DNA of 38,990 nucleotides from Ramlibacter sp. (GTDB lineage Bacteria > Pseudomonadota > Gammaproteobacteria > Burkholderiales > Burkholderiaceae_C): contig JAGRPN010000109.1 of assembly GCA_019449555.1 (NCBI GenBank), positions 1 through 38,990 of the forward strand. Direction: 5' to 3'. How positions within the stretch are numbered: the first letter of the stretch is position 1; every line of letters starts with the position of its first letter. The translations under genes were made by a program, and so were the position numbers. This document shows positions 899 to 30,674 of the stretch, one piece after another. The notes beneath the pieces are model-generated. The model was not told the origin of the DNA and searched no databases. It worked only from the letters and a program-made list of their open reading frames with translations.

Positions 899-1114
899 AT
901 GACGCGCCCACCATCCCTCGCCAAATTGCGCGTGCCCCTGGGCGGGCAGGAGATCGAACTGCAGCAGATCGACAGCGAAGCCGGCGGCATGAGCCTGCTG
1001 CGCACGCGCATCCGCGAGGGCAGCCGCTTCACCGTGTTCGACATCGACCCGATCACCGCCGAGCAGTGGGGCGAGGCGATGTTGCGATGGGCGTGCTCGC
1101 AAGTGAGGGAATGA
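899..1114 (+). CDS. Conserved-looking 71-aa protein, first gene of the operon divergent from dsrA
   Basis: The ATG at 899 gives a 71-residue soluble protein (MTRPPSLAKLRVPLGGQEIE...) with no signal peptide, no membrane segment and one Cys near the end. The alternation of charged and hydrophobic residues suggests a small alpha/beta fold. An in-frame reading extends far upstream, but that part is low-complexity and overlaps dsrA on the other strand, so the ATG at 899 is the reasonable start. Its stop lies 4 bp before the GTG of the Cas6-like gene, so the two are almost certainly co-transcribed. I do not recognise a named family with confidence. Its position between dsrA and a DsrC homologue suggests a role linked to sulfur metabolism, by association only. 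Confidence 0.65.
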   Translation: MTRPPSLAKLRVPLGGQEIELQQIDSEAGGMSLLRTRIREGSRFTVFDIDPITAEQWGEAMLRWACSQVRE

Positions 1115-1118
1115 AGGC

Positions 1119-1727
1119 GTGGACGCGCAGGCCGAGATGATCGACGTAGCGTTCGCGCTGGAAGGCGAGACCCTGCCGTACGAGCACCGCTACGCCCTGG
1201 CTGAAGCGCTGCAACGCGCGCTGCCCTGGCTGGAGAGCGAACCCCGCGCCGGCGTGCACCGCCTCAATCTCGTGCGCAGCGGCAGCGGCGCGGAACTCAT
1301 TTCGCGGCGCACCCGATTGATGCTGCGCGTGCCGCGCAGCCGCGCCGACGACACGTGCGCGCTCGCCGGCGCCCGGCTCGAACTGGGCGCCGATCGCGTG
1401 CGCGCCGGGCGCGCGCAGCCGCGCGAGCTGCTGCCGCACGGCACGCTCTATGCCGGCCTGGTGGCGGCGGACAGCCCCGACGAAGCGGCGTTCCTGGAAC
1501 GCATTCAGGGCGAGCTGGACGCGATGGGCGTGCGTGCCCAGCCGGTATGCGGCCGCTGGCAAGCGGCGGAAGCGGGCCGCCTGCTCGGCTGCAGCCTGAT
1601 GCTGACGGGGCTGGACCCGGTGCAGTCGCTTCGCCTGCTGCAGCAGGGGCTGGGACGCCACCGCCGGCTCGGCTGCGGCCTGTTCGTTCCGCACCGGTCG
1701 GCCGCCGCTGTCGGCACGCCCGCCTGA
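1119..1727 (+). CDS. Cas6/Cmx6-like (type I-MYXAN) endoribonuclease homologue
   Basis: This 202-aa protein has the layout of Cmx6, the Cas6 variant of the MYXAN CRISPR subtype. It has an N-terminal hydrophobic strand followed by LEGETLPYEHRYALAEAL, a central LMLRVP and ELLPHGTLYAGLV, and a C-terminal segment SLMLTGLDPVQSLRLLQQGL that leads into GRHRRLGCGLFVPH. The Gly-rich end is the hallmark of the Cas6 ferredoxin-like fold that binds and cuts hairpin RNA. His in YEHRYAL is a possible catalytic residue (inference). The GTG at 1119 has a GAGG ribosome site; an ATG at 1137 would start exactly at the conserved strand and is an alternative. No CRISPR array and no other cas gene is present in the window. 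The gene sits in a sulfur-linked operon, so its RNA target is unknown. Confidence 0.8.
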   Translation: MDAQAEMIDVAFALEGETLPYEHRYALAEALQRALPWLESEPRAGVHRLNLVRSGSGAELISRRTRLMLRVPRSRADDTCALAGARLELGADRVRAGRAQPRELLPHGTLYAGLVAADSPDEAAFLERIQGELDAMGVRAQPVCGRWQAAEAGRLLGCSLMLTGLDPVQSLRLLQQGLGRHRRLGCGLFVPHRSAAAVGTPA

Positions 1728-1755
1728 GCCACCCCAGCGAAAGGAGACCAAGCGC

Positions 1756-2166
1756 ATGGCATACGTCGTGAACGGCGAGGACCTCGGAACCGACGAGCAG
1801 GGGTTCCTGCTGGCGCCGGATTATCGCGACGCAGTGGTGCGCGCGATAGCGTCCGCCGAAGGCATCGCGCTGACCGAAAAATTGGGGTCAGATTCCAATT
1901 TCGCTGCGGCGCGACGCGCCGCCGGCCAGCAGGCCTTGAGCAACGGCTCCGCGAATTTGGAATCCGACCCCAATTTTTCCTACCTGCGCGACCAGTACCG
2001 CGAGCACGGCCACACGCCGAACTTCCGCAACATGCTCAAGGACCTCGGCGAGGTGCTGCCGGGCTGCGACAGCAAGTCGCTGTACGCGCTATTTCCCACC
2101 GGCCCCGCCAAACAGGGCGCCAAGGTGGCGGGGCTGCCGCAGCCGCTGGGCAAAGGCGGGTACTAA
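1756..2166 (+). CDS. DsrC/TusE-family protein lacking both redox cysteines (RspA-like), with an in-frame repeat insertion
   Basis: This 136-aa protein shows the DsrC family pattern: an N-terminal VNGEDLGTDEQGFL, then YLRDQYREHGHTPNFRNMLK and the C-terminal LYALFPTGPAKQGAKVAGLP. In DsrC the last segment holds a Cys where this protein has Ala (KQGAK) and a penultimate Cys where it has Gly-Gly-Tyr. Both redox cysteines are therefore absent, which matches the RspA subgroup, proposed to be regulatory rather than a sulfur carrier. One other Cys occurs in LPGCDS. Between ALTE and YLRDQY, family members have a short helix of the His-Trp type. Here about 33 residues (KLGSDSNF...LESDPNFS) are instead encoded by a palindromic repeat (1876-1979), making the protein longer than the usual roughly 110 aa. 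An AAAGGAGA ribosome site precedes the ATG. The insertion may impair the fold. Confidence 0.85.
   Translation: MAYVVNGEDLGTDEQGFLLAPDYRDAVVRAIASAEGIALTEKLGSDSNFAAARRAAGQQALSNGSANLESDPNFSYLRDQYREHGHTPNFRNMLKDLGEVLPGCDSKSLYALFPTGPAKQGAKVAGLPQPLGKGGY
1876..1979. repeat. REP-like palindromic element inside the dsrC-family gene
   Basis: Arms at 1876-1904 and 1951-1979 are inverted repeats matching at 27 of 29 positions, with a core GGGGTCAGATTCCAA in one orientation. The 46-bp spacer contains a second palindrome (GGCGCGACGCGCC). The same arm sequence and the same internal palindrome occur again at 18887-18983 in an intergenic region, which identifies this as a dispersed element rather than native coding sequence. 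It is read in frame without a stop. Confidence 0.85.
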
Positions 2167-2180
2167 CCCGGAGACGAACG

Positions 2181-2831
2181 ATGGCGCTGCCCAGCCCGCC
2201 GACGCCGCGTCTGAAGACGCACTGGTTCCGCCATGGGGCGAGCCGCGGCGCCGCGCAGCAGGCGAGCGCCGCCGCCTTCATCGTGTGGCGCGTCGCACGC
2301 CATACGCTGGACCGCACGCGCCATGCGGGCTTCGCCGTGGAGGTCGGGCCGCCCTATTTCCAGTTCCTGCGCGAGGTGCTCGCTTTCCTGGTGGCGATCG
2401 CCGACCGGATCGCATTCGCGCGGCTGGCGCCCACCGCTCGCGCGGAGTTCACGGCGGCGCTGGTGCACCACCTGGCGCGCATCCTGCAGGACAGCGAGGA
2501 CGACCTCATCGGGGCGGCGGCGCCGGGCCGGCCCTCGCATGGCGACAGTTTCATCGACCTGGTCAACGAACTGGCCGGGCACTACGCGGAGTTCGGCGCC
2601 GACCCCACCGACAAGTGCGCGCCGGGCGGCTTCGCGCCCGGGTTCGCGTTCGTGCGCTACCTGGGCACGCGGCTGGAGCCGACGCTGCCGCCCGAGGATC
2701 GCCGCTGGATCCTCGACCAGGTGATGGCGGTGCAAGCGCCCGAAGCCGTCGCCATGCTGCAGCAGTCATTGCGCGACCTGTTCGAGCCACCGGCGCGCGC
2801 CTCGCGCCGCGCGGCCCTCACCGGTGACTGA
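2181..2831 (+). CDS. Hypothetical 216-aa helical protein in the Cas6-DsrC operon
   Basis: The ATG at 2181 is preceded by CCCGGAGACGAACG, a good ribosome site. The protein is predicted to be mostly helical and soluble. It has no CXXC motif or signal peptide, and several hydrophobic helices (YFQFLREVLAFLVAIADRIAF) are amphipathic rather than clearly transmembrane. One Cys occurs in a DKCAPGGF segment that may form a loop. I do not recognise the family. The gene starts 14 bp after the DsrC homologue stop, and its own stop lies 4 bp before the preferred ATG of the dioxygenase gene, so it belongs to the same transcript. A partner or scaffold role is possible; nothing in the sequence shows catalysis. 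Confidence 0.7.
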   Translation: MALPSPPTPRLKTHWFRHGASRGAAQQASAAAFIVWRVARHTLDRTRHAGFAVEVGPPYFQFLREVLAFLVAIADRIAFARLAPTARAEFTAALVHHLARILQDSEDDLIGAAAPGRPSHGDSFIDLVNELAGHYAEFGADPTDKCAPGGFAPGFAFVRYLGTRLEPTLPPEDRRWILDQVMAVQAPEAVAMLQQSLRDLFEPPARASRRAALTGD

Positions 2832-2835
2832 ATTC

Positions 2836-3765
2836 ATGCAGGCCGTCGCCCTGACCCACACCACCGGCTGCCTGGCGGTGAATCCGTTCGATCTGCAAGA
2901 CGAGGCCAGCTACCGCCGCTGGCGCCACTGGAAGCTCGCGCTGCAGCCGCGCCACATCCAGGACCTGATGGTCGACGTGCGTGACCCGCGCGCACTCACG
3001 GCGGGCGAACGCACCGAGTTGCTCGCGTGCATCGCGCGCGGCGGTTGCGCGATCTACCGCTCGCGGGTGCTGGGCGACGACCCCGAGCTGCCGCGGCGCC
3101 TGGGCGAGCAATTGGGGCTGCACCGGCTGGACGCCAACTGGCTGGCCGAGGAAGACGGCGTCTCGCGCATCACGGTTTCGCGGGCCACCGATGGCCATGG
3201 CGGGTTCATCCCCTACACGGACCAGGCGATCGGCTGGCACACTGACGGCTATTACCATCCGCAGCCGCGGCGCATCCTGGGCATGGTGCTGCACTGCGTG
3301 CGGCCGGCGCGCACCGGCGGCGAGAACGCGCTGCTGGACCCGGAGCTGGCCTACATCGCGCTGCGCGACCGCTCGCCGCGTCTCGTGCAGGCGCTCAGCC
3401 AGCCCGATGCGATGACCATCCCCGCACGCTACGACGGATCGGGCGTCGCGCGTCCCGCGCAGCCGGGGCCCGTGTTCTCGCTGGACGAGCACGGCTGCCT
3501 GCACATGCGCTACACGGCGCGCACCCGCTCGATCGCATGGAAGAACGACGACGCAACGCTGGGCGCGGTGTCGCTGCTGCGCGATCTGATGAAGCAGTCG
3601 CCGGCGGTCTGGCGCGTGCGCATGGAAGCCGGCATGGGCGTCGTGGGGCACAACGTGCTGCATGATCGCAGCGCGTTCGAGGACGACCCGCAGCACCCGC
3701 GCCTGCTGCTGCGCGCGCGCTTCCTGGATCGCATCCGTCCGGAGACCTCGTGGCGCAATGGGTGA
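2836..3765 (+). CDS. TauD/TfdA-like Fe(II)/2-oxoglutarate dioxygenase
   Basis: The 309-aa product carries the facial-triad pattern of this family: HTD in IGWHTDGYY (H-x-D), a distal His in GHNVLHDRSAF, and the nearby Arg (LLLRARF) expected to hold 2-oxoglutarate. TauD-type enzymes hydroxylate small substrates, often sulfonates such as taurine, releasing sulfite. That would fit a sulfur locus, but the substrate here is not shown by the sequence. I chose the ATG at 2836, which has a weak GGTGA upstream. A GTG at 2824 that overlaps the previous gene is the alternative. The end overlaps the next gene by 16 bp, indicating tight coupling with the reductase, which could supply electrons. Confidence 0.82.
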   Translation: MQAVALTHTTGCLAVNPFDLQDEASYRRWRHWKLALQPRHIQDLMVDVRDPRALTAGERTELLACIARGGCAIYRSRVLGDDPELPRRLGEQLGLHRLDANWLAEEDGVSRITVSRATDGHGGFIPYTDQAIGWHTDGYYHPQPRRILGMVLHCVRPARTGGENALLDPELAYIALRDRSPRLVQALSQPDAMTIPARYDGSGVARPAQPGPVFSLDEHGCLHMRYTARTRSIAWKNDDATLGAVSLLRDLMKQSPAVWRVRMEAGMGVVGHNVLHDRSAFEDDPQHPRLLLRARFLDRIRPETSWRNG

Positions 3766-5225
3766 GCATCTGGCGTGCCGCGCAACTGGCCGGCGTCCCG
3801 AGGGCCGCGCTGCAGCGCCGCGTGCGCGCCGGCGAGATCGAGGAAAACGACGGCATGGTCTCCACGCAGTCGCTGCTGGCGCTCTATCCGCAATTGCAGC
3901 TGGAAACAGCGGGCCTGGCCGACCGGGTCGCGCAGATCCGCGACGAAGCGTTCGGCCGGCGCGTGCGCGAACGGCTATTGCCCAGCCAGGAAGTGCTGGC
4001 GCAGCGGCTGTTCCGGCAAAGCCAGGAGCTGGCCGACCTGCAGCGGCACCTGCAGCGCTATCACGCGCTCGTGATCTCCCTGCGCGACGAGCTGCGCCGC
4101 CACCAGCAACAGGCGGGCGGCGATGACGCGCGGCTGTTGGCGCTCGAGCGCGAACTCACCAGCGGCCTCGCCCGGGTCCTGGCCACCGAGCCCGTGGACG
4201 CGCTGCACGTGATGGACGACATGCTCAAACTGATCTCGGCGCAGGTCACGCTGCGCCCCAGCGGCCACCAGTTCACCGTGGAGGGACACGACAGCCTGTT
4301 GCAGGCGGGCCTGCGCGCCGGCATCAACCTCAACTACGGATGCGGCAACGGCAGCTGCGGCATATGCAAGGTGCGGGTGACCTCGGGCGAGGTGGCGCGC
4401 AGCGGGCACAGCGACTATCCCCTCTCGGAGGCGGAAAAGGCGCAGGGCTACGTGCTCGCCTGCGTCCATACGGCGGCCAGCAGCGAGGTAACGCTCGAGA
4501 CGCTGGAAGCCGGAGGGCCGGCCGACATTCCGCTGCAGCAGATCACGGCCACCGTGCGCGCCCTGCGCCCGCTCGGAACGGACACGATGCTGCTGCACCT
4601 GCAGACGCCCCGCACGCACCGTCTGCGCTTTCTCGCCGGGCAGTCCGTGACCCTGGCTGTAGCGGACGGCGAGAGCGCGCAGGCCCGGCATCCCGTGGCC
4701 AGCTGCCCCTGCGACGATCGCAACCTGCAGTTCTTCCTGCGCCGCGATGCGGAAGACCCCGTGGCCACCCGGCTGTTCGAGGGCCGAGTCAGGCCGGGCG
4801 ATCCGGTGACGGTGTGGGGGCCGCACGGCGAGTTCACGCTCGCCGGCGGATCGCAACCGCTGGTGTTCGTCGCCTGCGACCACGGCTTCGGGCCAGTCAG
4901 GAGCCTGATCGAGCATGCGCTCTCGCTCGACGCGGCCCCGTCGATCGCGCTGTTCTGGCTGGCAACGCGCGCGGACGGCCATTTCCTCGCCAACCAGTGC
5001 CGCGCGTGGTCGGCGGCGCTGGACCCGTTCGAGTACAACCTGTTCAGCGACAGCGACCCCGCCGCCGGCGCGCTGCAGGTGGGCCGGGCCTTGCGTGCCG
5101 ACGTGTTCCAGATCGACTGCGCGTTCTACCTTGCGGGACCGGTGGAATTCGTGATGACGATCGGGGCACAGCTCAGCGAAGCCGGCGTGCCCGAGGCGCA
5201 GATCCACACGGAGGTGCTGCCATGA
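3750..5225 (+). CDS. Fusion protein: predicted HTH and coiled coil, plant-type 2Fe-2S ferredoxin, FAD/NAD(P) reductase
   Basis: The 491-aa protein has an unusual order. Residues 5-45 look like a small helix-turn-helix or excisionase-type segment (IWRAAQLAGVPRAALQRRVR). Residues 50-140 are charged heptad-like helix, probably coiled coil. Residues 165-255 are a plant-type ferredoxin with cluster ligands C198, C203, C206 and C238 (GCGNGSCGICKV). Residues about 260-360 are an FAD-binding barrel with a degenerate RHPVASCP motif, and the C-terminus is an NAD(P) domain (VFVACDHGFGPVRS, FYLAGP). The C-terminal half matches the reductase components of oxygenases and phenol-hydroxylase-type flavoproteins. 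The GTG start at 3750 has GGAG upstream and overlaps the dioxygenase gene. It may feed electrons to that dioxygenase-like protein, or be a redox-responsive regulator; the N-terminal assignment is inference. Confidence 0.8.
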   Translation: MAQWVSIWRAAQLAGVPRAALQRRVRAGEIEENDGMVSTQSLLALYPQLQLETAGLADRVAQIRDEAFGRRVRERLLPSQEVLAQRLFRQSQELADLQRHLQRYHALVISLRDELRRHQQQAGGDDARLLALERELTSGLARVLATEPVDALHVMDDMLKLISAQVTLRPSGHQFTVEGHDSLLQAGLRAGINLNYGCGNGSCGICKVRVTSGEVARSGHSDYPLSEAEKAQGYVLACVHTAASSEVTLETLEAGGPADIPLQQITATVRALRPLGTDTMLLHLQTPRTHRLRFLAGQSVTLAVADGESAQARHPVASCPCDDRNLQFFLRRDAEDPVATRLFEGRVRPGDPVTVWGPHGEFTLAGGSQPLVFVACDHGFGPVRSLIEHALSLDAAPSIALFWLATRADGHFLANQCRAWSAALDPFEYNLFSDSDPAAGALQVGRALRADVFQIDCAFYLAGPVEFVMTIGAQLSEAGVPEAQIHTEVLP

Positions 5226-5581
5226 GCTGCGGCACCGACGCCCCGCGCGAACTGCAGGCCGATACCGGCTGCAGCGGCGGTGAATCATTCGCGCTGCGCG
5301 TGCTGGGCGAGGACATGCTGCCGGAGTTCCGCGAGGGCGACATCATCATCGTCGAACCCGACGGCGCCCTGAAGGACGGCAGCTTCGTGCTGGCGCGCCC
5401 GCAAGGGGAATGGACGCTGCGCCAGCTTGCCCGGCGCGGCGAGGCCTGGTGCCTGCGCGCGCTGAACCCCGCCCGCGGCGAGCGGCCCGAACTGCCGTTG
5501 GCGGATCTCTCCTGCGTGCACGGCGTGGTGATCCAGAAAGCCGTGCCCGGCCGAAGAAAACTCAGCAAGAGCTACCTCTGA
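5222..5581 (+). CDS. S24/LexA-fold protein lacking the catalytic Ser-Lys dyad
   Basis: The 119-aa product matches the C-terminal half of LexA/UmuD-type S24 peptidases: FALRVLGEDMLPEFREGDII, then GSFVLARPQGEWTLRQL. In active members the first motif is G-D/E-S-M-x-P with Ser as nucleophile. Here the Ser is Asp (D31). The expected downstream Lys appears to be Arg (R67). The protein is therefore probably a non-cleaving version of the fold, useful for dimerisation or ligand binding. It overlaps the preceding gene by 4 bp (ATGA), giving translational coupling with the HTH-ferredoxin-reductase protein. No DNA-binding domain is attached, so it may act with that partner (inference). Confidence 0.78.
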   Translation: MSCGTDAPRELQADTGCSGGESFALRVLGEDMLPEFREGDIIIVEPDGALKDGSFVLARPQGEWTLRQLARRGEAWCLRALNPARGERPELPLADLSCVHGVVIQKAVPGRRKLSKSYL

Positions 5582-5582
5582 C

Positions 5583-5801
5583 ATGCCTTACTTCGTCTAT
5601 GCCATCCAGCCGTTCGCCCAGCTCGAGCAGTTGGGCGAATCCCCGAGCTTTCCCGAAGCGTCGCGCCAGGCGCGCGCCTTGCGCGCAGCGCAGCCGGCCC
5701 AGCAAAACCGGCGCATCCGGATCGTGTTCGCCGACAGTCCCCTCGCCGCCGAGGACCTGCTGCTCCAGGTACGCGAGGCGCCGCCCGAAGGCGACGACTG
5801 A
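5583..5801 (+). CDS. Small 72-aa hypothetical protein
   Basis: The ATG at 5583 follows the previous stop by 1 bp. The product begins MPYFVYAIQPFAQLEQLGES, has a basic middle part and ends in an acidic tail. There are no cysteines, no membrane segment and no signal peptide. The beta strand followed by helix, and a second strand (RIRIVFADS) leading to a helix with AAEDLL, suggest a compact alpha/beta domain. I do not recognise a named family. The spacing makes it part of the same operon. Confidence 0.65.
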   Translation: MPYFVYAIQPFAQLEQLGESPSFPEASRQARALRAAQPAQQNRRIRIVFADSPLAAEDLLLQVREAPPEGDD

Positions 5802-5809
5802 GGCGCGCG

Positions 5810-6247
5810 ATGGACGAGGACATCACGGCATCGGCCTGCTGCGAGAGCGCCCAGGCGTGCGTGTTTTCCAAGGCACTCCTGGCGCGCGCCGCCAGCTGCG
5901 AGCTGTCGCAGCGGACCTGCGTCGGCGAGCGCGAGGTGCTGACCTGCGGCTCGCCGGTGGCACGCATCAATTGCGGCACGCTGGCCGCGCTGCTGCACGA
6001 GCGGGCCCGTTTCGCGCTGCGGCTGCCCGCGCCCGGCCGGCCGCTAATGCACGTGCATGCGCTGCGCTTGCAGTGCGGCGGCCTCACCGCGCTGCGGCGC
6101 GAACTCGCGGCTGCCGAGCCGGACGTGCATCGCATGGTGGCCGGCGCGCAGGAGCGGCACGGCAGCCTGGCTGCGCTCCCCTGGGAGACGCTGGTCGCCG
6201 CCATCGCGAACTGGCAGCCGCGCCGGCGCGGGATCACCCGGGACTGA
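5810..6247 (+). CDS. Cys-rich 145-aa hypothetical protein, last gene of the operon
   Basis: The ATG at 5810 starts a soluble protein with eight cysteines, at about residues 10, 11, 17, 30, 37, 46, 55 and 88. Seven of them fall in the first 55 residues (ACCESAQAC, SCELSQRTC, LTCGS, INCGT). The density suggests a metal or Fe-S site, but the spacing fits no standard ferredoxin or zinc-ribbon pattern that I recognise. The C-terminal half is helical and ends in a basic RRRGI segment. It starts 8 bp after the previous gene and ends with a 14-bp convergent overlap with yeeE. Function is unknown; a redox or metal role within the operon is an inference from the cysteines. Confidence 0.68.
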   Translation: MDEDITASACCESAQACVFSKALLARAASCELSQRTCVGEREVLTCGSPVARINCGTLAALLHERARFALRLPAPGRPLMHVHALRLQCGGLTALRRELAAAEPDVHRMVAGAQERHGSLAALPWETLVAAIANWQPRRRGITRD

Positions 6248-7376
6248 GTTGCGCCTCAGGTTCGCGTTCGGCCTGCCACACCAGCATCTTGAGCGTGGCG
6301 ACCGAGCCGGCCACGATGCCGGTCACCGCGATCATCGAGCCGAGCGCCAGCGTGGACAGGCCCGACAGGCCCTGGCCGACGGTGCAGCCGAGCGCGCTGA
6401 CGCCGCCCGCGCCCATGAGCAAGGCGCCTGCGATCTGGTTGCGCAGGTCGGCGAGCGAGGCGAATCCCTCCAGCCGGAACGTGCGCGTCGCGACGGCATG
6501 GGCCGCGGAGCCGGCGATCGTACCGAGCACCAGGGCGATGCCGAACGTGAGGTGCAGCGAACGGTCGGTCCACAGCATCAGCAGTTCCAGCGAGTACGCC
6601 AATGGCCCGACGAAGCTCAGCGACTCGAGCGTTCGCGAGTTGGTCGCGTGGTACACGGTCTCCAGCGTGTCGGGGTTCTCGCCGAAGCCGACATGGCCGG
6701 TGACGTACCAACCTGCGGCCACCACCGCGCCCAGCACGACCGCGCCGGCCCATTGCCGGCGGTTCTGCCGGTAGCGCCGGTCCTTGAACACGAAGACCAG
6801 CAGGCCCGCGGCGACCGCGACTGCGGCTAGCGGCAGTGCCACGCGCGCAGGCAGGCCCGTCGCCCTGGCCAGCGCCATGCCCAGGCCGGCGTCGCTCCAG
6901 CCGAAGGCCGCCAGGTCGATGCGCGCCGGATCGAGCCAGCTGCTGCGCCATTGCGCGAACAGCCCCTTGAGCGTCATGTACGCGGCGATCGCCATGAAGG
7001 TCAGGACCACCAGCGAGCGCACGCTGCCGCCGCCGAGCCGCACCAGGTTGCGATTGGCGCAGCCGCCCGCGATCGTCATGCCCACGCCGAACAGCGCGCC
7101 CCCGACCAGCAGCGAGAGCCAGGGCAGTACCGGCCGCAAGGCGATCGATTTCGCCAGGTCCACCTCGCCCGTGGCGGCCAGCCAGGCCGTGCCCAGCATC
7201 GCCACCGCCAGCGCGAGCATCCAGCTGCGCATGCGCGCCCACGACCCCATGTTGACGATGTCGGAGAGCGCACCCATGGTGCAGAAGTTGGTGCGGGCCG
7301 CCATCAGCCCGAATACGAACGCGAGCGCGAAGCCCGAGGCGACGACGATCAGGCCCAGGTCGGCGTGGCTGCCCAT
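6234..7376 (-). CDS. YeeE/YedE (TsuA-like) sulfur-compound transporter
   Basis: This 380-aa polytopic membrane protein has the three family Cys motifs: NFCTMG near the N-terminus, GGCANRN at about residue 105 and LGCTVGQG near the C-terminus. In the structurally studied homologue TsuA, conserved cysteines in such motifs move thiosulfate across the inner membrane. The length and number of helices agree with the YeeE/YedE family. The ATG at 7376 has a GAGG site upstream. It is the third gene of a tusA-dsrE2-yeeE set, which supports uptake of thiosulfate or another sulfane-sulfur compound and delivery to TusA. Its 3' end overlaps the convergent Cys-rich gene by 14 bp. Confidence 0.88.
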   Translation of the reverse strand: MGSHADLGLIVVASGFALAFVFGLMAARTNFCTMGALSDIVNMGSWARMRSWMLALAVAMLGTAWLAATGEVDLAKSIALRPVLPWLSLLVGGALFGVGMTIAGGCANRNLVRLGGGSVRSLVVLTFMAIAAYMTLKGLFAQWRSSWLDPARIDLAAFGWSDAGLGMALARATGLPARVALPLAAVAVAAGLLVFVFKDRRYRQNRRQWAGAVVLGAVVAAGWYVTGHVGFGENPDTLETVYHATNSRTLESLSFVGPLAYSLELLMLWTDRSLHLTFGIALVLGTIAGSAAHAVATRTFRLEGFASLADLRNQIAGALLMGAGGVSALGCTVGQGLSGLSTLALGSMIAVTGIVAGSVATLKMLVWQAEREPEAQLSPG

Positions 7377-7425: not shown

Positions 7426-7896
7426 TCAGATGAACAGGCACACGTCGGAGTCGCCGGCGAACTTCAGGAACGTCGCGGCCCCGCCATAGTCGATGCCGTC
7501 GATGAAGTCGTCCTTCGAGAAGTCGAACAGGTCCACCGTCATCTGGCAGGCGATGAATCCCACGTCGGCTTCCTGGCAGGTGGTGCGCAGCTCCTGCAGC
7601 GAAGCCACGCCCTTCTTCTTCATCTTGGCTTTCATCATCGAGGTCGCCATCGCCTCCATGCCGGGCAGCATCGACACGACCACCGGCATGGGCACCGGCA
7701 TCGGCATCGCCGGGTTGGCCAGCGGGCTGATCGCGATGTCCTTGAGGTCCTTGCGCAGCAGCTGGAGACCGTAGAACGTGAAGAACACCTTCACGTCCCA
7801 GCCCAGCGTGGCCGCCGTCGAAGCCAGGATCAGGGGCGGATAAGCCATGTCCAGCGCGCCCTTGGTCGCGATGATGGCCATCTTCTTGCTCGCCAT
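7426..7896 (-). CDS. dsrE2: DsrE2-type sulfur-trafficking protein
   Basis: This 156-aa DsrE/peroxiredoxin-like family protein starts MASKKMAIIATKGALDMAYP and has a Met/Pro/Val-rich middle insertion (AMPMPVPMPVVVSMLPG), typical of the membrane-associated DsrE2 branch. The conserved Cys lies in FIACQMTVDLF, with another at LRTTCQEAD. DsrE2 proteins work next to TusA in cytoplasmic persulfide relay in sulfur oxidisers. An AAGGAGA site precedes the ATG at 7896. It lies between tusA and yeeE with short gaps, so the three are likely one transcript. Confidence 0.88.
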   Translation of the reverse strand: MASKKMAIIATKGALDMAYPPLILASTAATLGWDVKVFFTFYGLQLLRKDLKDIAISPLANPAMPMPVPMPVVVSMLPGMEAMATSMMKAKMKKKGVASLQELRTTCQEADVGFIACQMTVDLFDFSKDDFIDGIDYGGAATFLKFAGDSDVCLFI

Positions 7897-7925: not shown

Positions 7926-8153
7926 TCAGCCCTTGCGCAGGAAGAACACGTACTTGCTGTTCTCCGTGGTGGAGGCCAGCAGCGTGTTGCCGGTCTCTTC
8001 CGCGAACGCGGCCATGTCGCACACCGATCCGGGATCGGTGGCGATGACGCGCAGGACCTGGCCGGCGGCCATGCCGCCCAGCGACTTCTTGGTCTTGACG
8101 ATGGGCATCGGGCAGGCCAGGCCCGAGGCGTCGAATTCCTTGTCGAACTGCAT
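7926..8153 (-). CDS. tusA: TusA/SirA-family sulfur carrier protein
   Basis: This 75-aa protein contains the family signature FDASGLACPMPIVKTKKSL, with the catalytic Cys in the CPMP motif. TusA carries a persulfide on this Cys and passes it to DsrE/DsrC-type partners or to tRNA thiolation. A longer in-frame reading to 8261 exists, but the ATG at 8153 has an AGGAGA site at proper distance and gives the usual TusA length. It is the first gene of the tusA-dsrE2-yeeE operon. Association with DsrE2 points to sulfur oxidation rather than housekeeping tRNA modification. Confidence 0.93.
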   Translation of the reverse strand: MQFDKEFDASGLACPMPIVKTKKSLGGMAAGQVLRVIATDPGSVCDMAAFAEETGNTLLASTTENSKYVFFLRKG

Positions 8154-8453
8154 GCATGTCTCCTGTGCAGGGCCCGATCCCGTGCGGGCCCGAGAAGACG
8201 TATTAGCGGAGATGCGCGCCTTGGCGTCTATCACCGGGATGGGGAGTGGGGCATAGCCCATGCGGGTAGTGCGGGCAACAGCAGTCCGTGCTCGCGAATT
8301 TCAAACGAGGCCCGGCCCGGCGTCGTTCAGCGAACGGTGCAGCTCAGCCGGGCACCGTTGCTGCGCAGCGGCGCTCCCGTGAACATGGGATGGGCAGGGC
8401 CGCAGACGGCGAGCACGATCGGGCTTCGCCCGCACGCAAACAGGAGACAGAAA
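8154..8453. other. Divergent intergenic region without a recognised gene
   Basis: This 300-bp gap separates tusA (minus) from the exported protein at 8454 (plus), so it must carry both promoters. I see GC-rich imperfect repeats (GCCCGG near 8311 and 8358) but no clear sigma-70 promoter, RNA gene or convincing small ORF. Confidence 0.4.
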
Positions 8454-9269: not shown

Positions 9270-9887
9270 TCACTGGCGCGTGAGCGACGTGCCGGCGTTC
9301 CTGACGGAGTCGCCGACCCTGTAGCCGGGGTCCTGCTCGAAAGCAAACTCCTTGTGCGTGCCGTTCTGGTAGGTCACCCCGACGGTCCACACCTTCTTCG
9401 TATTCACCTTTTCTTCGATCTTCTTGCCGGCGTAAGCGCCGCCCACCGCACCGGCGATCGTGGCGAGGTCCTTGCCCCTGCCGCTGCCGATCTGGTGGCC
9501 CAGCACGGCGCCACCGACGCCGCCCGCGATGAGGCCCACAGGGCCGCCCGTGCCGGCCTCCTCCTTCATGGAAACCGCGGTCACCTTGCCGCAGTCCGGG
9601 CAGGCCACGGGAACCGGCACGGGCGCGGCCGCAGGCGCAGGCGCCACGGCGACTTTTGCTTTGGCCGCCGCGATGGCCGCGTCGTATTCGGCCTTGGCAT
9701 CCCGGCGGCACTGCAGGCGGGCGCTGGACGTGGCCTCGTCGTTGCACAGGTTCTTGTCGGATGCATAGCGGGTCTGCGCCGCCTTTGTCTCGGCCGCGAG
9801 CTGCGCCCTGGGCGAGGCGGGAGCCTGGGCCTGCGCGCCCATGGCGAAGATGAGACCGCTGGCAGCGGCGACGAGGAAGTTCTTCAT
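9270..9887 (-). CDS. Exported glycine-zipper (2TM) envelope protein
   Basis: This 205-aa protein has a clear signal peptide (MKNFLVAAASGLIFAMGAQA) starting at the ATG at 9887. A charged helical segment with two cysteines follows, then an Ala/Pro/Val linker, a CPDCG pair, and a glycine-zipper stretch (GLIAGGVGGAVLGHQIGSG and IAGAVGGAYAGKKI). The C-terminal domain resembles the SlyB/17-kDa antigen type of outer membrane proteins. It lacks a lipobox, so it is probably periplasmic or outer-membrane embedded rather than a lipoprotein. A longer in-frame reading to 9974 has no support. A palindromic repeat lies 27 bp upstream of its start. Confidence 0.75.
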   Translation of the reverse strand: MKNFLVAAASGLIFAMGAQAQAPASPRAQLAAETKAAQTRYASDKNLCNDEATSSARLQCRRDAKAEYDAAIAAAKAKVAVAPAPAAAPVPVPVACPDCGKVTAVSMKEEAGTGGPVGLIAGGVGGAVLGHQIGSGRGKDLATIAGAVGGAYAGKKIEEKVNTKKVWTVGVTYQNGTHKEFAFEQDPGYRVGDSVRNAGTSLTRQ

Positions 9888-9913
9888 GACAATCTCCGAG
9901 TGATTGCCATGAG

Positions 9914-9942
9914 TATTAGCACAGCAATTGCAGCGCGACAAG
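9914..9942. repeat. Short repeat, copy 1, upstream of the glycine-zipper gene
   Basis: This 29-bp sequence with core AGCACAGCAATTGC matches 26 of 29 bases at 13395-13423. It contains the palindrome GCAATTGC. On the minus strand it also has the shape of a promoter (TTGTCG, 17-bp gap, TAATAC) directed at the gene starting at 9887. It could be an operator/promoter or a small dispersed repeat. Confidence 0.4.
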
Positions 9943-10039
9943 CATGCGGCAGGCCTGGTGAGTCCAAAAAGCAATCACGGTTGGACCTTCGTGGTTCCGC
10001 CGCCACTGAGCCCGCGCCGCGTGCGTGGCCCTATCGGGA

Positions 10040-10429
10040 TCAGCGTGCCGGACCGCCCAGGATCGTGCTGGCTTTCACTCGCACCGCCCGTTTCTGGAAA
10101 TACGCCGAGCCGCTGTCTTCTGCGTTCATGGCGCGCACTTCCAGGCGAGCGGCCTTGTACTCGGATCTTGCTTGTTCGGATGTATGAGGGGTCTTGAGCA
10201 CAACCGGCTGGTTGTGCTGCATGGCCCACTCGCTGGAGCCGGTCCCCATGAGTTCGGTTTTCCCCATGAGTTCAGCTACTTCGGCTCGGCTGAGGGTGCC
10301 GACGAATGTCGTGGTGTATTCGGCGATGCTCTCAGCATAGGCGTTCGTGGGCGAAACGAGCGCCACCGCAATGGCTGCTGCGGCGGCCGCGGTGCTGACA
10401 GCGTAGAAAGCCTCGGCGTTGTGATTCAT
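10040..10429 (-). CDS. Small exported protein, weak resemblance to DUF4148-type proteins
   Basis: The ATG at 10429 has an AAGGAGTTACC ribosome site. The 129-aa product has a signal peptide (MNHNAEAFYAVSTAAAAAA ... NAYA) and a mature part with LSRAEVAELMGKTELMGTGS, similar in style to the LTRAQV-type segments of DUF4148 periplasmic proteins common in Burkholderiales. The family call is tentative. There is no cysteine and no catalytic motif. It is followed upstream by a two-component pair on the same strand, but a terminator-like hairpin (10631-10650) lies between them. Confidence 0.6.
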   Translation of the reverse strand: MNHNAEAFYAVSTAAAAAAIAVALVSPTNAYAESIAEYTTTFVGTLSRAEVAELMGKTELMGTGSSEWAMQHNQPVVLKTPHTSEQARSEYKAARLEVRAMNAEDSGSAYFQKRAVRVKASTILGGPAR

Positions 10430-10673: not shown

Positions 10674-11342
10674 TTACCGCTCGTCGAGCCACTTCGAGGC
10701 AAAGCGAACCAGGTCAGCGCCTGATTTCAACTGCAACTTTTCCTTCAGGCCGGCGCGGTGCGCCTCGATCGTCTTGATGCTGCGATTGAGTTTTTCGCTG
10801 ATCTGCCGCGTGCTGAAGCCCAGCCCGAGCAGGTGCAGGATCTCGAACTCGCGTGCGCTCAGGCCGGCGATGGGGCTGTCAGGCGAACCACTGCGTGAAG
10901 CCATTTGTTGCGCCAACCGCAGGTGCATCGCCGCACTGAGGTAAATGCCCCCCGACAGGACCGTGCGCACCGCCAGCAGGATATTGGCGGTGGCTTCATG
11001 CTTCATCAGATACCCCTTGGCGCCGGCACGCAGGGCACGTTCCGCAAAGATCGACTCGTCGTGCAGGCTCATGGCCAGTATGGCCAGGTCCGGGTAGCGG
11101 CGACGCATGAGCTTGATGAGGTCCAGCCCCGATTCGCCGTTGAGCGTGATATCGACGATGGCGAGGGCCGCGTCGCACTTCGCCAAGGTTGCCATCGCCT
11201 CTTCGGCATTGCCCGCTTCGCAACACAAATGCAGATCCGCCTGTGCGTTGAGGAACAGTGCCATGCCTTCCCGCACGATGGGGTGGTCGTCCACCATCAG
11301 GATCCGGGCTTTCTCCATCCTGAGCACCGGGTCGCCGCTCAA
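10674..11342 (-). CDS. NarL/FixJ-family response regulator
   Basis: This 222-aa protein has an N-terminal receiver domain (ILMVDDHPIVREGM, phosphoacceptor Asp in AIVDITLNG, Lys in GAKGYLMK) and a C-terminal LuxR helix-turn-helix (LSAREFEILHLLGLGFSTRQ, then LNRSIKTIEAHR). It should bind DNA when phosphorylated by the adjacent sensor. The preferred start is a TTG at 11342: its first bases overlap the kinase stop (TTGA), and GGAGG lies at a good distance. An ATG at 11318 is an alternative with a poorly spaced ribosome site. Target genes are not evident. Confidence 0.9.
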   Translation of the reverse strand: MSGDPVLRMEKARILMVDDHPIVREGMALFLNAQADLHLCCEAGNAEEAMATLAKCDAALAIVDITLNGESGLDLIKLMRRRYPDLAILAMSLHDESIFAERALRAGAKGYLMKHEATANILLAVRTVLSGGIYLSAAMHLRLAQQMASRSGSPDSPIAGLSAREFEILHLLGLGFSTRQISEKLNRSIKTIEAHRAGLKEKLQLKSGADLVRFASKWLDER

Positions 11343-12967
11343 GGTTGCGCCTCCGCATCGGGATACGTGACGGACACGGTTGTGCCGCGCGGAAAGTTGT
11401 CCGAAACTTGCAGCATGCCGCCCAGCAGGCTTGCCCGGTATCGCATGCTGTACATACCCATCCCTGTATCGGCGCCGGCGCGAAAGCCAATGCCATCATC
11501 GCTCAGGGTGAGACGGTGCTGACCGTCGACGCGAGCCAGATCGATCCGTATCAGGCCCGCTTGACTGTATTTGACTGCGTTGTTGACCGCTTCCTGCGCG
11601 ATGCGGTACAGATTGATTGCGACCAGCGGATCGTGCACCTGTACCTGACGACCGACGCAGACGACGCATTTGATTGTCTTGAGAGAGCTGGTATCTTCAG
11701 CCAGGCGTTCCAGCGCCGCAATCAGGCCGCCATGCTCCAAAGCCACCGGGTACAGGCCGCGGGCAGCGGTTCGGTTCATGGCGGCGGCGTCGCCGATGAG
11801 TTCCCCGATCCTGCGGGCAGCATCGGCTTCGGGCAGTGCGCGATCGATGAGCTTCTGCCGCAAGCTTTCACAAAGGAGCGAGAGACTGGTCAGGTGCTGT
11901 CCGAGGCCGTCGTGCAGCTCGGACCCGATCGCGCGCCGCTGCTCTTCACTCACGCGAATCAGCGCGATTTCCAGGTTACGGCGTTCGGCCATCTCCGTGT
12001 GCAGGTCGGAATTGGCCGCAAGCAGATCCCGAGTGCGCTCCGCCACACGTTGTTCCAGTTTCTCGTGTGAACGTCTGAGCTGTGCCTGCGCGTGCTGCTG
12101 TTCGGCAATCGACGCTGCGAGCACGAGCCCGGTGACCGCAACGATGATCGAAAAGGTGCACCACTGAACGACATCGTAAAAGGAGTCTCCGCTCATGAAG
12201 GGCCCGTTGCCTCGCGATGCGCCCCAAACAACCATGACAGCTGACACGAGAGTGACCAGGCTGGCCCCTGGTTGCCGAAAGCGCAGAGAGCCCCAGATCA
12301 CGAAGGGGAATACAGCCATCGGTGCGGCGTCGTATCGGTTGGGAGCGAGTTCCGGGAGGCCGAATATCCTCACAGTGACGATCACGAGCAACGCCAGCAG
12401 GCACGAGGCCTCCGCGACTTTCCCGGGCGAAGGTGCGCGCAGGGGCTCTCTCATCCACAACAACAATGGCGGAGCCACCACCAGCATGCCCATCATGTCC
12501 CCCAACCACCATTTCACCCACGCAGTGGCGTAGTTTTGCGGGGCCACGGTTCCGATTCCAGCCAACGTTGCCACGCCAACGAAAGCGCTAATCATCGTGG
12601 CGAAAAAGGCCGCCAGGACAATCAGTGCCAGGACATCCCGTCTGGTTCGCAGGCCGACATCGAATCCGGGAAATCGGGCCAACAGCCATGCGCCGCCCAA
12701 CGCTTCCAGAGTGTTGCCCGCCGCAATGCTGCAAGCTGCAACCAGCGGTACGCCAGTTCCTGCATTGGCCAGAAAAGCGCCCAGCGCCACGGCGAACGCC
12801 ATGCGCCAGCCATAGAGCAACAGGGCCGCGAGCGCAATTCCGCTGGGGGCCCATGCCAGGGTCACGGTGTTGCCGACAACGGCGTGCGCCAGTCCCGCTT
12901 CCGCGGCAGCAACGTAAAGCGCCGTGATGCCAATGAAGAGGCCAACAAAAGACGGCGTCCATTTCAT
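11339..12967 (-). CDS. MASE1-domain sensor histidine kinase (NarX-type transmitter)
   Basis: This is a 542-aa protein. Residues 1-290 form about eight membrane helices of MASE1 type (MKWTPSFVGLFIGITALYVA, then NTVTLAWAPSGIALAALLLY and the WVKWWLGDMMGMLVVAP segment). A coiled linker with EKLEQRVAERTRDLL leads to a HisKA_3 transmitter (EEQRRAIGSELHDGLGQHL, phospho-His in ELHDG) and an HATPase domain with LSDDGIGF and GMGMYSM. The reading frame extends to a TTG at 13060, but the ATG at 12967 has an AGGA site and begins just before the first helix. The pairing with the overlapping response regulator is clear. MASE1 ligands are generally unknown. Confidence 0.88.
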   Translation of the reverse strand: MKWTPSFVGLFIGITALYVAAAEAGLAHAVVGNTVTLAWAPSGIALAALLLYGWRMAFAVALGAFLANAGTGVPLVAACSIAAGNTLEALGGAWLLARFPGFDVGLRTRRDVLALIVLAAFFATMISAFVGVATLAGIGTVAPQNYATAWVKWWLGDMMGMLVVAPPLLLWMREPLRAPSPGKVAEASCLLALLVIVTVRIFGLPELAPNRYDAAPMAVFPFVIWGSLRFRQPGASLVTLVSAVMVVWGASRGNGPFMSGDSFYDVVQWCTFSIIVAVTGLVLAASIAEQQHAQAQLRRSHEKLEQRVAERTRDLLAANSDLHTEMAERRNLEIALIRVSEEQRRAIGSELHDGLGQHLTSLSLLCESLRQKLIDRALPEADAARRIGELIGDAAAMNRTAARGLYPVALEHGGLIAALERLAEDTSSLKTIKCVVCVGRQVQVHDPLVAINLYRIAQEAVNNAVKYSQAGLIRIDLARVDGQHRLTLSDDGIGFRAGADTGMGMYSMRYRASLLGGMLQVSDNFPRGTTVSVTYPDAEAQP

Positions 12968-13235
12968 GTCGATCCTGGACGCGCCAACGAGCGTGTGCGC
13001 TGGTCTTTTTGCGATCACATCGGATTGATCGATTGGGATCTCTCGTTGGAAACGATACAAGCCATTATGGTGGCCGTCCGTTTACAGACCTACTCAGCCG
13101 TCACGCAACCAGCTCTGTCGCAGTTCTGACAGTCGAAAGCCGGGCTGCCCCAAGGCCGGCCAGCGCGGTGATCTGCCGCGGCTCTGGGCCCCCGCGGCGT
13201 TTTCAAAGTAGCAAGCAGCTCAAAGGAGAAGAAAC

Positions 13236-18707: not shown

Positions 18708-19054
18708 GGCCCTGTTAACACTGTTTTTGGCAGTGCGAACGTGGTTAGAACCGCGCCAATCTAGGCGCGCGACGACGCCAAGGCTGGACGCCTTGGCTAG
18801 GAGTTCAACAACGAGTGGCGCGGTTATAACCACGTTCCCTCCGGGTTGCGGCCAAAAAGGCCAATTGCGTTGTTACGGCGGCTGGCAATAATTGGGGTCA
18901 GATTCCAAATTCGTCGGCCCGTTAACGGGTCTGAGGGCCGGCGCGTCGCGCCGGGACGAAATTGGAATCTGACCCCGATTATTTCGTCCGCCGCGCCTAG
19001 CACTTGACCTTTTTGACTCGCAACGCATCTGTCAAAAACAGTGTTAACAGGCCC
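18708..19054. mobile_element. MITE-like element with terminal inverted repeats and TA flanks
   Basis: The ends carry inverted repeats of about 27 bp with a common GTTAACACTGTTTTTG core (18708-18734 and 19029-19054, two or three mismatches), and both ends are bordered by TA. Inside is a second inverted pair (about 18738-18757 and 18815-18834, 19 of 20 matching: ACGTGGTTAGAACCGCGCCA and its partner) and a copy of the GGGGTCAGATTCCAA palindromic repeat. There is no transposase gene. The structure and TA borders fit a non-autonomous element mobilised by an IS630-type transposase; this family link is inference. Confidence 0.75.
18887..18983. repeat. REP-like palindromic element, second copy, nested in the MITE
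   Basis: Arms at 18887-18915 and 18955-18983 are near-perfect inverted repeats with the same GGGGTCAGATTCCAA core as at 1876-1979. The 39-bp spacer also contains the related palindrome GGCGCGTCGCGCC. The two copies lie 17 kb apart, one coding and one not. Confidence 0.85.
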
Positions 19055-30026: not shown

Positions 30027-30674
30027 CTATTCGCGCGCCGGATCGAGCAGGTTGTGCTCGATCGCGTAGCGCACCAGGTCCACCTGGCTGCCCAGGTTCA
30101 TCTTGCTCAGGATGTGGGACTTGTGCGTGCTCACCGTCTTGATGCTCAGACACAGTTCGTCGGCGATCTCGGTCAGGCTGGCGCCGCGCACGATGCGGCT
30201 GAAAATGCCGTACTCGCGGTCGCTCAAAAGCGTGTGCGGGGCGCCTTCCGCGCTCCTGGAAATGTCGGTCGCCAGCAGCTGCGCCACCTTGTCGCTGACA
30301 AAAGCGCCGCCGGCGGCCACCTTGCGCAGCGCCGGCAGCAGCATGTCGCTGTCGCCTTCCTTGGAGAGATAGCCCGACGCCCCGGCCCGGATGGCGCGCA
30401 CGGCGAATTGCTCTTCCTGGTGCATGCTGAATACCAGGATCGGCAGCCGCGGACGCTCGGCTTTCATCATCTTGATCAGCTCCAGGCCGCTGCGCCCGGG
30501 CATGGACATATCGAGCACGACGATGCCCCAATCGCGCTCCCGCACCTTGTCGAGCGCCGCGTTGCCGTTGGCAGCTTCGCCGGCCACCACCATGTCGCCG
30601 GTATCGGCCAGGATCTTCTTCAATCCGTCCCGGATGATCGCGTGATCGTCCGCCACGAGTACTTCGATTTTCAT
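30027..30674 (-). CDS. NarL/FixJ-family response regulator
   Basis: The 215-aa product has a receiver domain (IEVLVADDHAIIRDGLKKIL, Asp in GIVVLDMSMPG, Lys in GYLSKEGDS) and a LuxR HTH (LSDREYGIFSRIVRGASLTE, LSIKTVSTHKSHIL). A GGAAACTGC ribosome site precedes the ATG, which overlaps the upstream kinase stop (ATGA). With the kinase it probably controls the cytochrome genes on either side, judged by location. Confidence 0.93.
   Translation of the reverse strand: MKIEVLVADDHAIIRDGLKKILADTGDMVVAGEAANGNAALDKVRERDWGIVVLDMSMPGRSGLELIKMMKAERPRLPILVFSMHQEEQFAVRAIRAGASGYLSKEGDSDMLLPALRKVAAGGAFVSDKVAQLLATDISRSAEGAPHTLLSDREYGIFSRIVRGASLTEIADELCLSIKTVSTHKSHILSKMNLGSQVDLVRYAIEHNLLDPARE

Follow-up and report, generated by a model that had tools for sequence, protein, structure and literature searches.

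In a 38,990-nucleotide (nt) stretch of Ramlibacter sp. DNA (contig JAGRPN010000109.1 of assembly GCA_019449555.1), referred to here in its entirety as the window, nine genes lie beside dsrA and divergent from it, and the locus they form consists of a dsr-dedicated module (genes 1 to 5) joined to an apparently recruited set made up of a reductase, a dead S24-type protein, a small protein and a four-cysteine protein (genes 6 to 9). Genes 1 to 5 are a conserved companion module of the reverse Dsr (rDsr) system in betaproteobacteria. Among the routes of biological sulfur oxidation the rDsr pathway is a major one, and to our knowledge neither its control nor its supply has been settled. A gene set that accompanies dsrA in betaproteobacteria and, as a smaller set, in a second class of the phylum, and that lies outside the named dsr genes, offers genetics a direct target. 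The module points to a so far unrecognised system that helps or controls the biological oxidation of sulfur. We found no account of it in the literature searched, which did not cover subscription journals.

The nine open reading frames (ORFs) called in the window run head to tail on the + strand from 899 to 6247, and the spacings between consecutive genes from 1 to 9 are 4, 28, 14, -8, -16, -4, 1 and 8 nt, from which a single transcript may be deduced. A first-pass annotation, made from the sequence alone, had described a tightly packed nine-gene operon here, and the ORFs and their gaps of -16 to +28 nt confirm the tight packing. Proteins were typed with Pfam and with further family models that carry cut-offs. 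Gene 1 (899 to 1114) encodes DUF6967 (PF22295, E 3.2e-27), gene 2 (1119 to 1727) a Cas6-family RAMP protein without a CRISPR link (PF09559, E 6.1e-53; TIGR02807), gene 3 (1756 to 2166) a DsrC-like protein that has an internal insert and lacks the two DsrC cysteines (PF04358, E 6e-22), gene 4 (2181 to 2831) a protein of no known family whose best Pfam match, at E 0.19, is far under cut-off, and gene 5 (2824 to 3765) a TauD-type Fe(II)/2-oxoglutarate dioxygenase (PF02668, E 8.6e-22). Upstream, on the - strand, only the 5' part of dsrA is present (2 to 673; TIGR02064 match at C389:2-643), the contig starting inside the gene.

An alignment scan of the genome collection with DUF6967 returned 372 relatives, of which the best 80, a selection leaning to close relatives, were examined. 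Per-gene presence counts use only loci whose contig extends far enough, ORFs of odd length or cut by a contig end were left out, and alignments A3 and A5 hold a subset of rows. DUF6967 adjoins a divergent dsrA in 79 of the 80 nearest loci, and in the 80th (L057) the contig begins 258 nt upstream of DUF6967. Gene order is constant across these loci, a few of which have just one or two of the genes, and median intergene gaps run from -4 to 36 nt. Gene 2 was found in 76/76 loci, gene 3 in 65/75, gene 4 in 71/71 and gene 5 in 66/67; the corresponding counts are 56/64 for gene 6, 53/61 for gene 7, 46/60 for gene 8 and 41/57 for gene 9. Most of the loci belong to Burkholderiales (Rubrivivax, Ramlibacter, Hydrogenophaga, Piscinibacter and others), and they also include Gallionella, one Nitrosomonadales and one annotated as Gammaproteobacteria (L066). 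Ramlibacter lithotrophicus RBP-1 (L029), a cultured sulfur oxidiser, is among the carriers of the operon. Because the nine-gene arrangement is conserved in other genomes, it is not a product of chance.

Specificity was examined in a sample of 398 genomes drawn evenly from the phylum, with family cut-offs applied. DUF6967 occurs in 10 of them, dsrA scores above its cut-off in 51, and the Cas6 family PF09559 occurs in 5. Nine of the 10 DUF6967 genomes are also among the 51 with dsrA, and the tenth is the present genome, with its truncated dsrA. All five PF09559 genomes fall within the DUF6967 set, and each time the Cas6 gene adjoins DUF6967 and dsrA. A similar linkage is seen from gene 4, which is found in 49/250 genomes of the window's order, representing 30 genera. 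Its neighbourhood was inspected in 45 of the 49 (G671, G683, G750 and G778 were left out), and other module genes lie near it in all 45; where more than 9 kb is in view, dsrA is seen in 21/22 genomes, the exception being one with rearranged genes (G783). A match to tandem TusA (TusA2) or rhodanese is present in 39/45 of the gene 4 loci, mostly between genes 3 and 4, an upper figure since a lone TusA may score as TusA2; Pfam confirmed the TusA and rhodanese families in two loci (L019 and L017). No TusA2 or rhodanese lies inside the nine-gene run of the window. On the strength of this linkage, a companion module dedicated to rDsr is very likely. The closest known cluster is the rDsr cluster of Allochromatium vinosum, which PMC3368242 gives as dsrABEFHCMKLJOPNRS. 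The module stands divergent from the dsrA of such a cluster, and in another class cysG joins it, whereas none of the nine genes is among its named dsr genes.

By another class we mean genomes that the database labels as the same phylum and a different class, possibly alphaproteobacteria. There, a smaller set of dioxygenase, DUF6967 and cysG is usually found beside dsrA. Of such loci 25 were compared; 5 came from the phylum sample and the other 20 from a set of 150 genomes belonging to a single order. In these the dioxygenase adjoins DUF6967 in 23, cysG is present in 19 and dsrA is in view in 20; the trio was not seen adjoining dsrA in three genomes of a single genus (G462, G502 and G536). The DUF6967 of one locus (L128) passes the Pfam cut-off, and the cysG of another (L124) carries sirohaem synthase domains. 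A tie between loss of the dioxygenase and phototrophy was considered and set aside: the two losing loci of the 25 are in genomes with PF00124, four other PF00124 genomes keep the dioxygenase, and the cases are too few.

Genes 6 to 9 have a different distribution. Gene 9 is found in 44/250 genomes of the window's order, and in the 14 of its loci that were fetched dsrA is absent from the 8 to 13 kb in view. Gene 8 adjoins gene 9 in 12 of these 14, while genes 7 and 6 are in view in 3 each. The distance from gene 9 to dsr is about 0.2 Mb in one genome (G056), about 1.6 Mb in a second (G277) and about 15 kb in a third (G060). Since genes 8 and 9, and sometimes 6 and 7, occur elsewhere without dsr, genes 6 to 9 look like a recruited betaproteobacterial set. 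The first-pass annotation had read all nine genes as a module tied to sulfur oxidation and had named conserved synteny with dsr as the check. Synteny is indeed conserved for genes 1 to 5 in betaproteobacteria and for DUF6967 and the dioxygenase in another class, but genes 8 and 9, and at some loci 6 and 7, are unlinked from dsr, so that the locus reads as a dsr-dedicated set plus a recruited one. Relatives of genes 6 to 9 also lie away from dsr in L192, L193 and L194, and the L192 run additionally holds an AAA ATPase, a DUF2201 metallopeptidase/VWA-like gene and an FAD-linked oxidase.

Gene 6 (3750 to 5225) begins with a segment resembling a helix-turn-helix (HTH) and a helical stretch, followed by a [2Fe-2S] ferredoxin-FAD-NAD reductase (Fer2, E 1.6e-17), and has 76% mean column identity over 24 rows. 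It had been annotated as an HTH-ferredoxin-reductase, and the reductase domains hold, but the HTH is weakly supported, with HTH_17 matched in 2/24 members at a best E of 0.029. Gene 7 (5222 to 5581) encodes an S24/LexA-like domain (Peptidase_S24, E 1.1e-15) without the Ser-Lys dyad. Its description as a dead S24 fold agrees with the replacement of the catalytic Lys by Arg in 56/56 sequences and with the loss of the Ser in the window, but the Ser is kept in 32/56, the other 24, window included, having Asp or Glu. Gene 8 (5583 to 5801) encodes a small protein of 72 aa and gene 9 (5810 to 6247) a protein in which C17, C30, C46 and C55 are present in 42/42 sequences; neither has a Pfam match.

The assignment of gene 2 to a Cas6-like fold, made in the first pass, is upheld by scores of 180.1 bits against PF09559 (cut-off 26.7) and 131.8 against TIGR02807 (cut-off 98.85). 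Its profile matches the type I-B Cas6 of PDB 8fcj at E 4.7e-31, and the G-rich C-terminal loop, with invariant G177, G179, G185 and G187, is a further likeness to the Cas6 of type I-MYXAN and I-B systems. The dsr-linked proteins differ from these in having Cys144 in 52/53 and His192 in 48/53, and in the DHxY motif, which is common to four plasmid-borne Cas6 relatives, three of them with cas3/cas8 adjoining. Its His (H23) is kept in the window and in 31/53 dsr-linked proteins and its Tyr in 17. C144 is missing from the three cas-linked relatives aligned, and a Gloeobacter relative has a Cys one column away. The partial retention of the DHxY His, together with a Cys missing from the cas-linked relatives aligned, would fit binding by gene 2 at least as well as cleavage. 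A search for an RNA target among the gaps between dsr genes, with medians of 11 to 40 nt, gave no hairpin by eye in 25 dsrH-dsrC spacers of 66, the longer gaps being left unfolded.

At the loci read, the Cas6 gene lies beside dsr and module genes and has no cas neighbours, no CRISPR array search having been made at each locus. This genome has a CRISPR locus on a separate contig (C85; L208 415-6597). It comprises a Cas_GSU0053 gene, a fusion of Cas4 with Cas1, and cas2, with three repeats of 38 nt where the contig ends, and is by the look of it type I-G; a 528-aa gene there without a Pfam match is taken for a putative Csb2. A CRISPR role for gene 2 was rejected, the Cas6 gene being found only at dsr in the five PF09559 genomes of the 398 and this CRISPR locus lying elsewhere. 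On the Gloeobacter plasmid pGMOR1 (L203 2808-8844), a Cas6-family gene neighbours a cupin and a gene with a PAPS-reductase domain. No cas genes are annotated in this run, which may be a further use of Cas6 outside CRISPR. A Cas6-like gene is split across two frames in L018 at 9575-10098 (G003), by a frameshift or an assembly error, and among 61 genomes scanned one (G020) has a weak Cas6 match (E 9.6e-4) with two stops.

DUF6967 is predicted to have a PC4/PUR-like fold. Its best model has a pLDDT of 90.8 and a beta4-alpha topology, and in a fold search the top PDB match is the PC4 homologue 5a4o, followed by chains of Pur-alpha repeat III, at probabilities of 0.99 to 1.00. R35, R37, R39 and R43 are invariant across 53 rows. 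PC4 and Pur-alpha share a single-strand-binding fold; DUF6967 differs from them in having no PDB sequence match at E below 0.4. The six-helix model of gene 4, with a pLDDT of 91, has no PDB fold match at E 0.001, and by sequence and model the protein would represent a new helical family. The dioxygenase call for gene 5 stands on the HxD...H motif and a 2-oxoglutarate Arg, with H139 and D141 each kept in 63/63 sequences, H280 in 62/63, and the Arg candidates R297 and R299 in 62/63. These residues are shared with the TauD-type enzymes TmpA, TMLD and BBOX, but gene 5 scores far under the equivalog cut-offs, and a single-sequence search found no PDB relative at E 0.001.

Gene 3 had been described as an RspA-like, cysteine-free DsrC. 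The family match holds, in two stretches either side of the insert, and both DsrC cysteines are gone, replaced by Ala and Gly; the protein is not cysteine-free, however, since residue 104 of its 136 is a Cys, and a palindromic insert had been overlooked. This REP-type palindrome (1876-1979) lies in frame within the gene, with arms of 36 nt (1876-1911 and 1944-1979) that are 86% complementary and a DNA folding z-score of -9.0. The 65 relatives of gene 3 are 109 to 110 aa long, all with the HW motif; the window protein has 136 aa and a displaced HW because of the insertion. All 65 relatives end in GKGGY without a C-terminal Cys, the upstream DsrC Cys is kept in 10 and 21 have no Cys at all. Gene 3 thus resembles the group of the DsrC/TusE family that lacks the DsrC cysteines, which we take to be RspA, and differs from it in the 10 relatives that retain the upstream Cys, in sharing a fixed operon with Cas6 and a dioxygenase and, for the window copy, in the insert. 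Copies or half-copies similar to the palindrome occur elsewhere in the genome, among them a copy at 18887-18983 of the window; on contig C168 (L207 1327-2151, G000) an ORF with a Y1_Tnp transposase domain has a half-copy on either side.

The intergenic region between dsrA and gene 1 (674 to 898) holds a conserved two-site element, which was compared over 78 of 79 such regions, window included, one region of 463 nt being left out. Site 1 (808 to 822) is the inverted repeat TACCCGAAAGGGGTA, whose pattern TACCCn5GG[GT][TA][AT] is present in 44/78 regions against a mean of 0.1 in dinucleotide shuffles. Site 2 (832 to 851) is CACCCGCAGCGGGGATGGAC, whose core [TG]AT[AG]GAC is present in 78/78 against a mean of 2.5; as the sequences are related, both counts overstate independence. 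A candidate motif common to both divergent promoters occurs in 34/78 regions towards dsrA and in 16/78 towards gene 1, as counts without a control. The TACCC half-site is reminiscent of NarL-type boxes. The window also codes for two response regulators with LuxR-type DNA-binding domains (10674-11342 and 30027-30674), which could act on the divergent promoter; each adjoins a putative sensor kinase gene, the two pairs spanning 10674-13060 and 30027-32701. The canonical DsrC of A. vinosum is reported in PMC5944118 to bind DNA upstream of the dsr cluster, and by analogy the DsrC-like gene 3 is a candidate binder of the intergenic sites.

We infer a regulatory or RNA-processing role for the module, and give a probability of about 0.35 to nucleic-acid-level control of dsr, coupled to O2/2-oxoglutarate and persulfide supply. 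By gene linkage the locus has two layers. DUF6967 and the Fe(II)/2-oxoglutarate dioxygenase form the core of the first, common to the other class, to which betaproteobacteria add the Cas6-family protein, the DsrC homologue without DsrC cysteines, the helical protein and, in many cases, a tandem TusA or rhodanese; the second layer is the reductase, dead-S24, small and four-Cys set, which also occurs without dsr. The DsrC-like protein may act at the conserved region of the divergent promoters, RNA or DNA in single-stranded form may be bound by DUF6967 and by the Cas6-family protein, persulfide load may be signalled by the sulfur carrier nearby, and the dioxygenase may modify nucleic acid or a partner protein in dependence on O2 and 2-oxoglutarate. 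As an outcome, dsr expression would track electron-acceptor and sulfur supply. The module is moreover a plain example of a metabolic operon in which a CRISPR RNA-processing family has become fixed. It also provides a working context for DUF6967 and for a helical family without a PDB match. A broader version, in which a Cas6 taken from CRISPR works with PC4-like and TusE/DsrC-like proteins, a sulfur carrier and an O2-dependent dioxygenase as an RNA-modifying or RNA-sensing machine that throughout betaproteobacteria couples translation, or the expression of dsr, to sulfur oxidation, we regard as unlikely.

Several observations weigh against control of dsr at the nucleic-acid level. In the 398-genome sample, 42 of the 51 dsrA genomes have no detected DUF6967, and a profile search of 14 dsrA loci from 13 of those 42 found neither DUF6967 nor the dioxygenase; the recovery of L127 and L128 as a control of this profile is by construction for DUF6967, both sequences being in it. 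At 13 of these 14 loci dsrA and dsrB are the sole dsr genes among those sought, and L262 also has dsrE, F and H. Since DUF6967 was not detected in many dsrA genomes, the module marks a part of the dsrA carriers and not all of them. Only 9 of the 80 nearest loci have TusA2 and none has rhodanese, gene 3 is absent from 10/75 loci and damaged in the window, and the DHxY His is lost in 22/53 dsr-linked Cas6 proteins. For DUF6967, the Foldseek matches have E >0.2 with unrelated folds also listed, and two of the five models have a mean pLDDT of 68. At the promoter, no conserved hairpin was seen in 71 regions picked for TACCC near the core, with a varying right arm and arms compared by eye, without a covariation test. 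Finally, the presence of cysG next to the DUF6967/dioxygenase pair in the other class fits cofactor supply equally well.

Supply or repair of the DsrAB cofactor is a tentative alternative, in which the dioxygenase and DUF6967 would serve siroheme or Fe-S maturation, gene 6 would donate electrons and the nucleic-acid-type folds would be scaffolds. Beyond the 19/25 other-class loci in which cysG follows the pair, it could draw on the runs at L192 to L194, flanked by relatives of gene 6 and of genes 7 to 9, since the AAA ATPase and DUF2201 metallopeptidase/VWA-like pairing of L192 is known from enzyme maturation. Siroheme is a cofactor of DsrAB according to PMC3368242. No cysG-like gene, however, is found in the 80 nearest betaproteobacterial loci, 42 of which span about 18 kb, and of the other betaproteobacterial loci searched just two have one, L244 (about 3 kb on) and L190 (>10 kb away from the module). 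Cofactor chemistry, moreover, offers no obvious role for a Cas6-family protein. That the module thiolates and/or hydroxylates RNA, with the Cas6-family protein binding it, TusA2 or rhodanese and the TusE/DsrC-like protein passing sulfur and the dioxygenase oxidising, seems to us quite unlikely. TusA and TusE are members of the tRNA thiolation relay, the sulfur-carrier match in up to 39/45 loci falls mostly between genes 3 and 4, and the Gloeobacter plasmid pairs its distant Cas6 relative with a PAPS-reductase-domain gene away from annotated cas genes. Against this, the C-terminal Cys is missing from all 65 DsrC-like proteins and the upstream one from all but 10, Pfam and the family models match no thiouridylase among the nine proteins, and a carrier gene is lacking from the window run and present in just 9 of the 80 nearest loci.

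Passing the Cas6 family models is also what an ordinary crRNA-processing Cas6 stranded beside dsr would do, but this is extremely improbable for gene 2, given that the five PF09559 genomes of the 398 carry Cas6 at dsr only, that the CRISPR locus of this genome is separate, on C85, and that C144 sets 52/53 dsr-linked proteins apart from the three cas-linked relatives aligned. Transfer of dsr clusters in their entirety is conceivable, and genes 8 and 9, sometimes with 6 and 7, are found elsewhere, so that the genes might merely travel with dsr and share no function; we consider this improbable, as gene 4 reaches 30 genera of the order and has other module genes near it in every one of the 45 genomes inspected, alternative sulfurtransferases occupy the same slot, and the DUF6967/dioxygenase pair recurs in another class.

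Downstream of the nine genes, three further genes lie on the - strand: a Sulf_transp (YeeE/YedE) transporter facing the operon (6234 to 7376; PF04143, E 3.3e-63), a dsrE2-like gene (7426 to 7884; PF13686, E 6.2e-52) and tusA, with a putative start codon (7926 to 8261; PF01206, E 1.2e-21). An Rfam search of the window gave a single match, a tRNA, and the sole PADLOC matches were Cas6 models on gene 2 and, weakly, mad1 on gene 6. Further dsr genes of this genome, with the canonical dsrC, lie at the end of a separate contig (C282), and a third DsrC-family gene, besides that dsrC and gene 3, is found at G000:C282 28081-28386.

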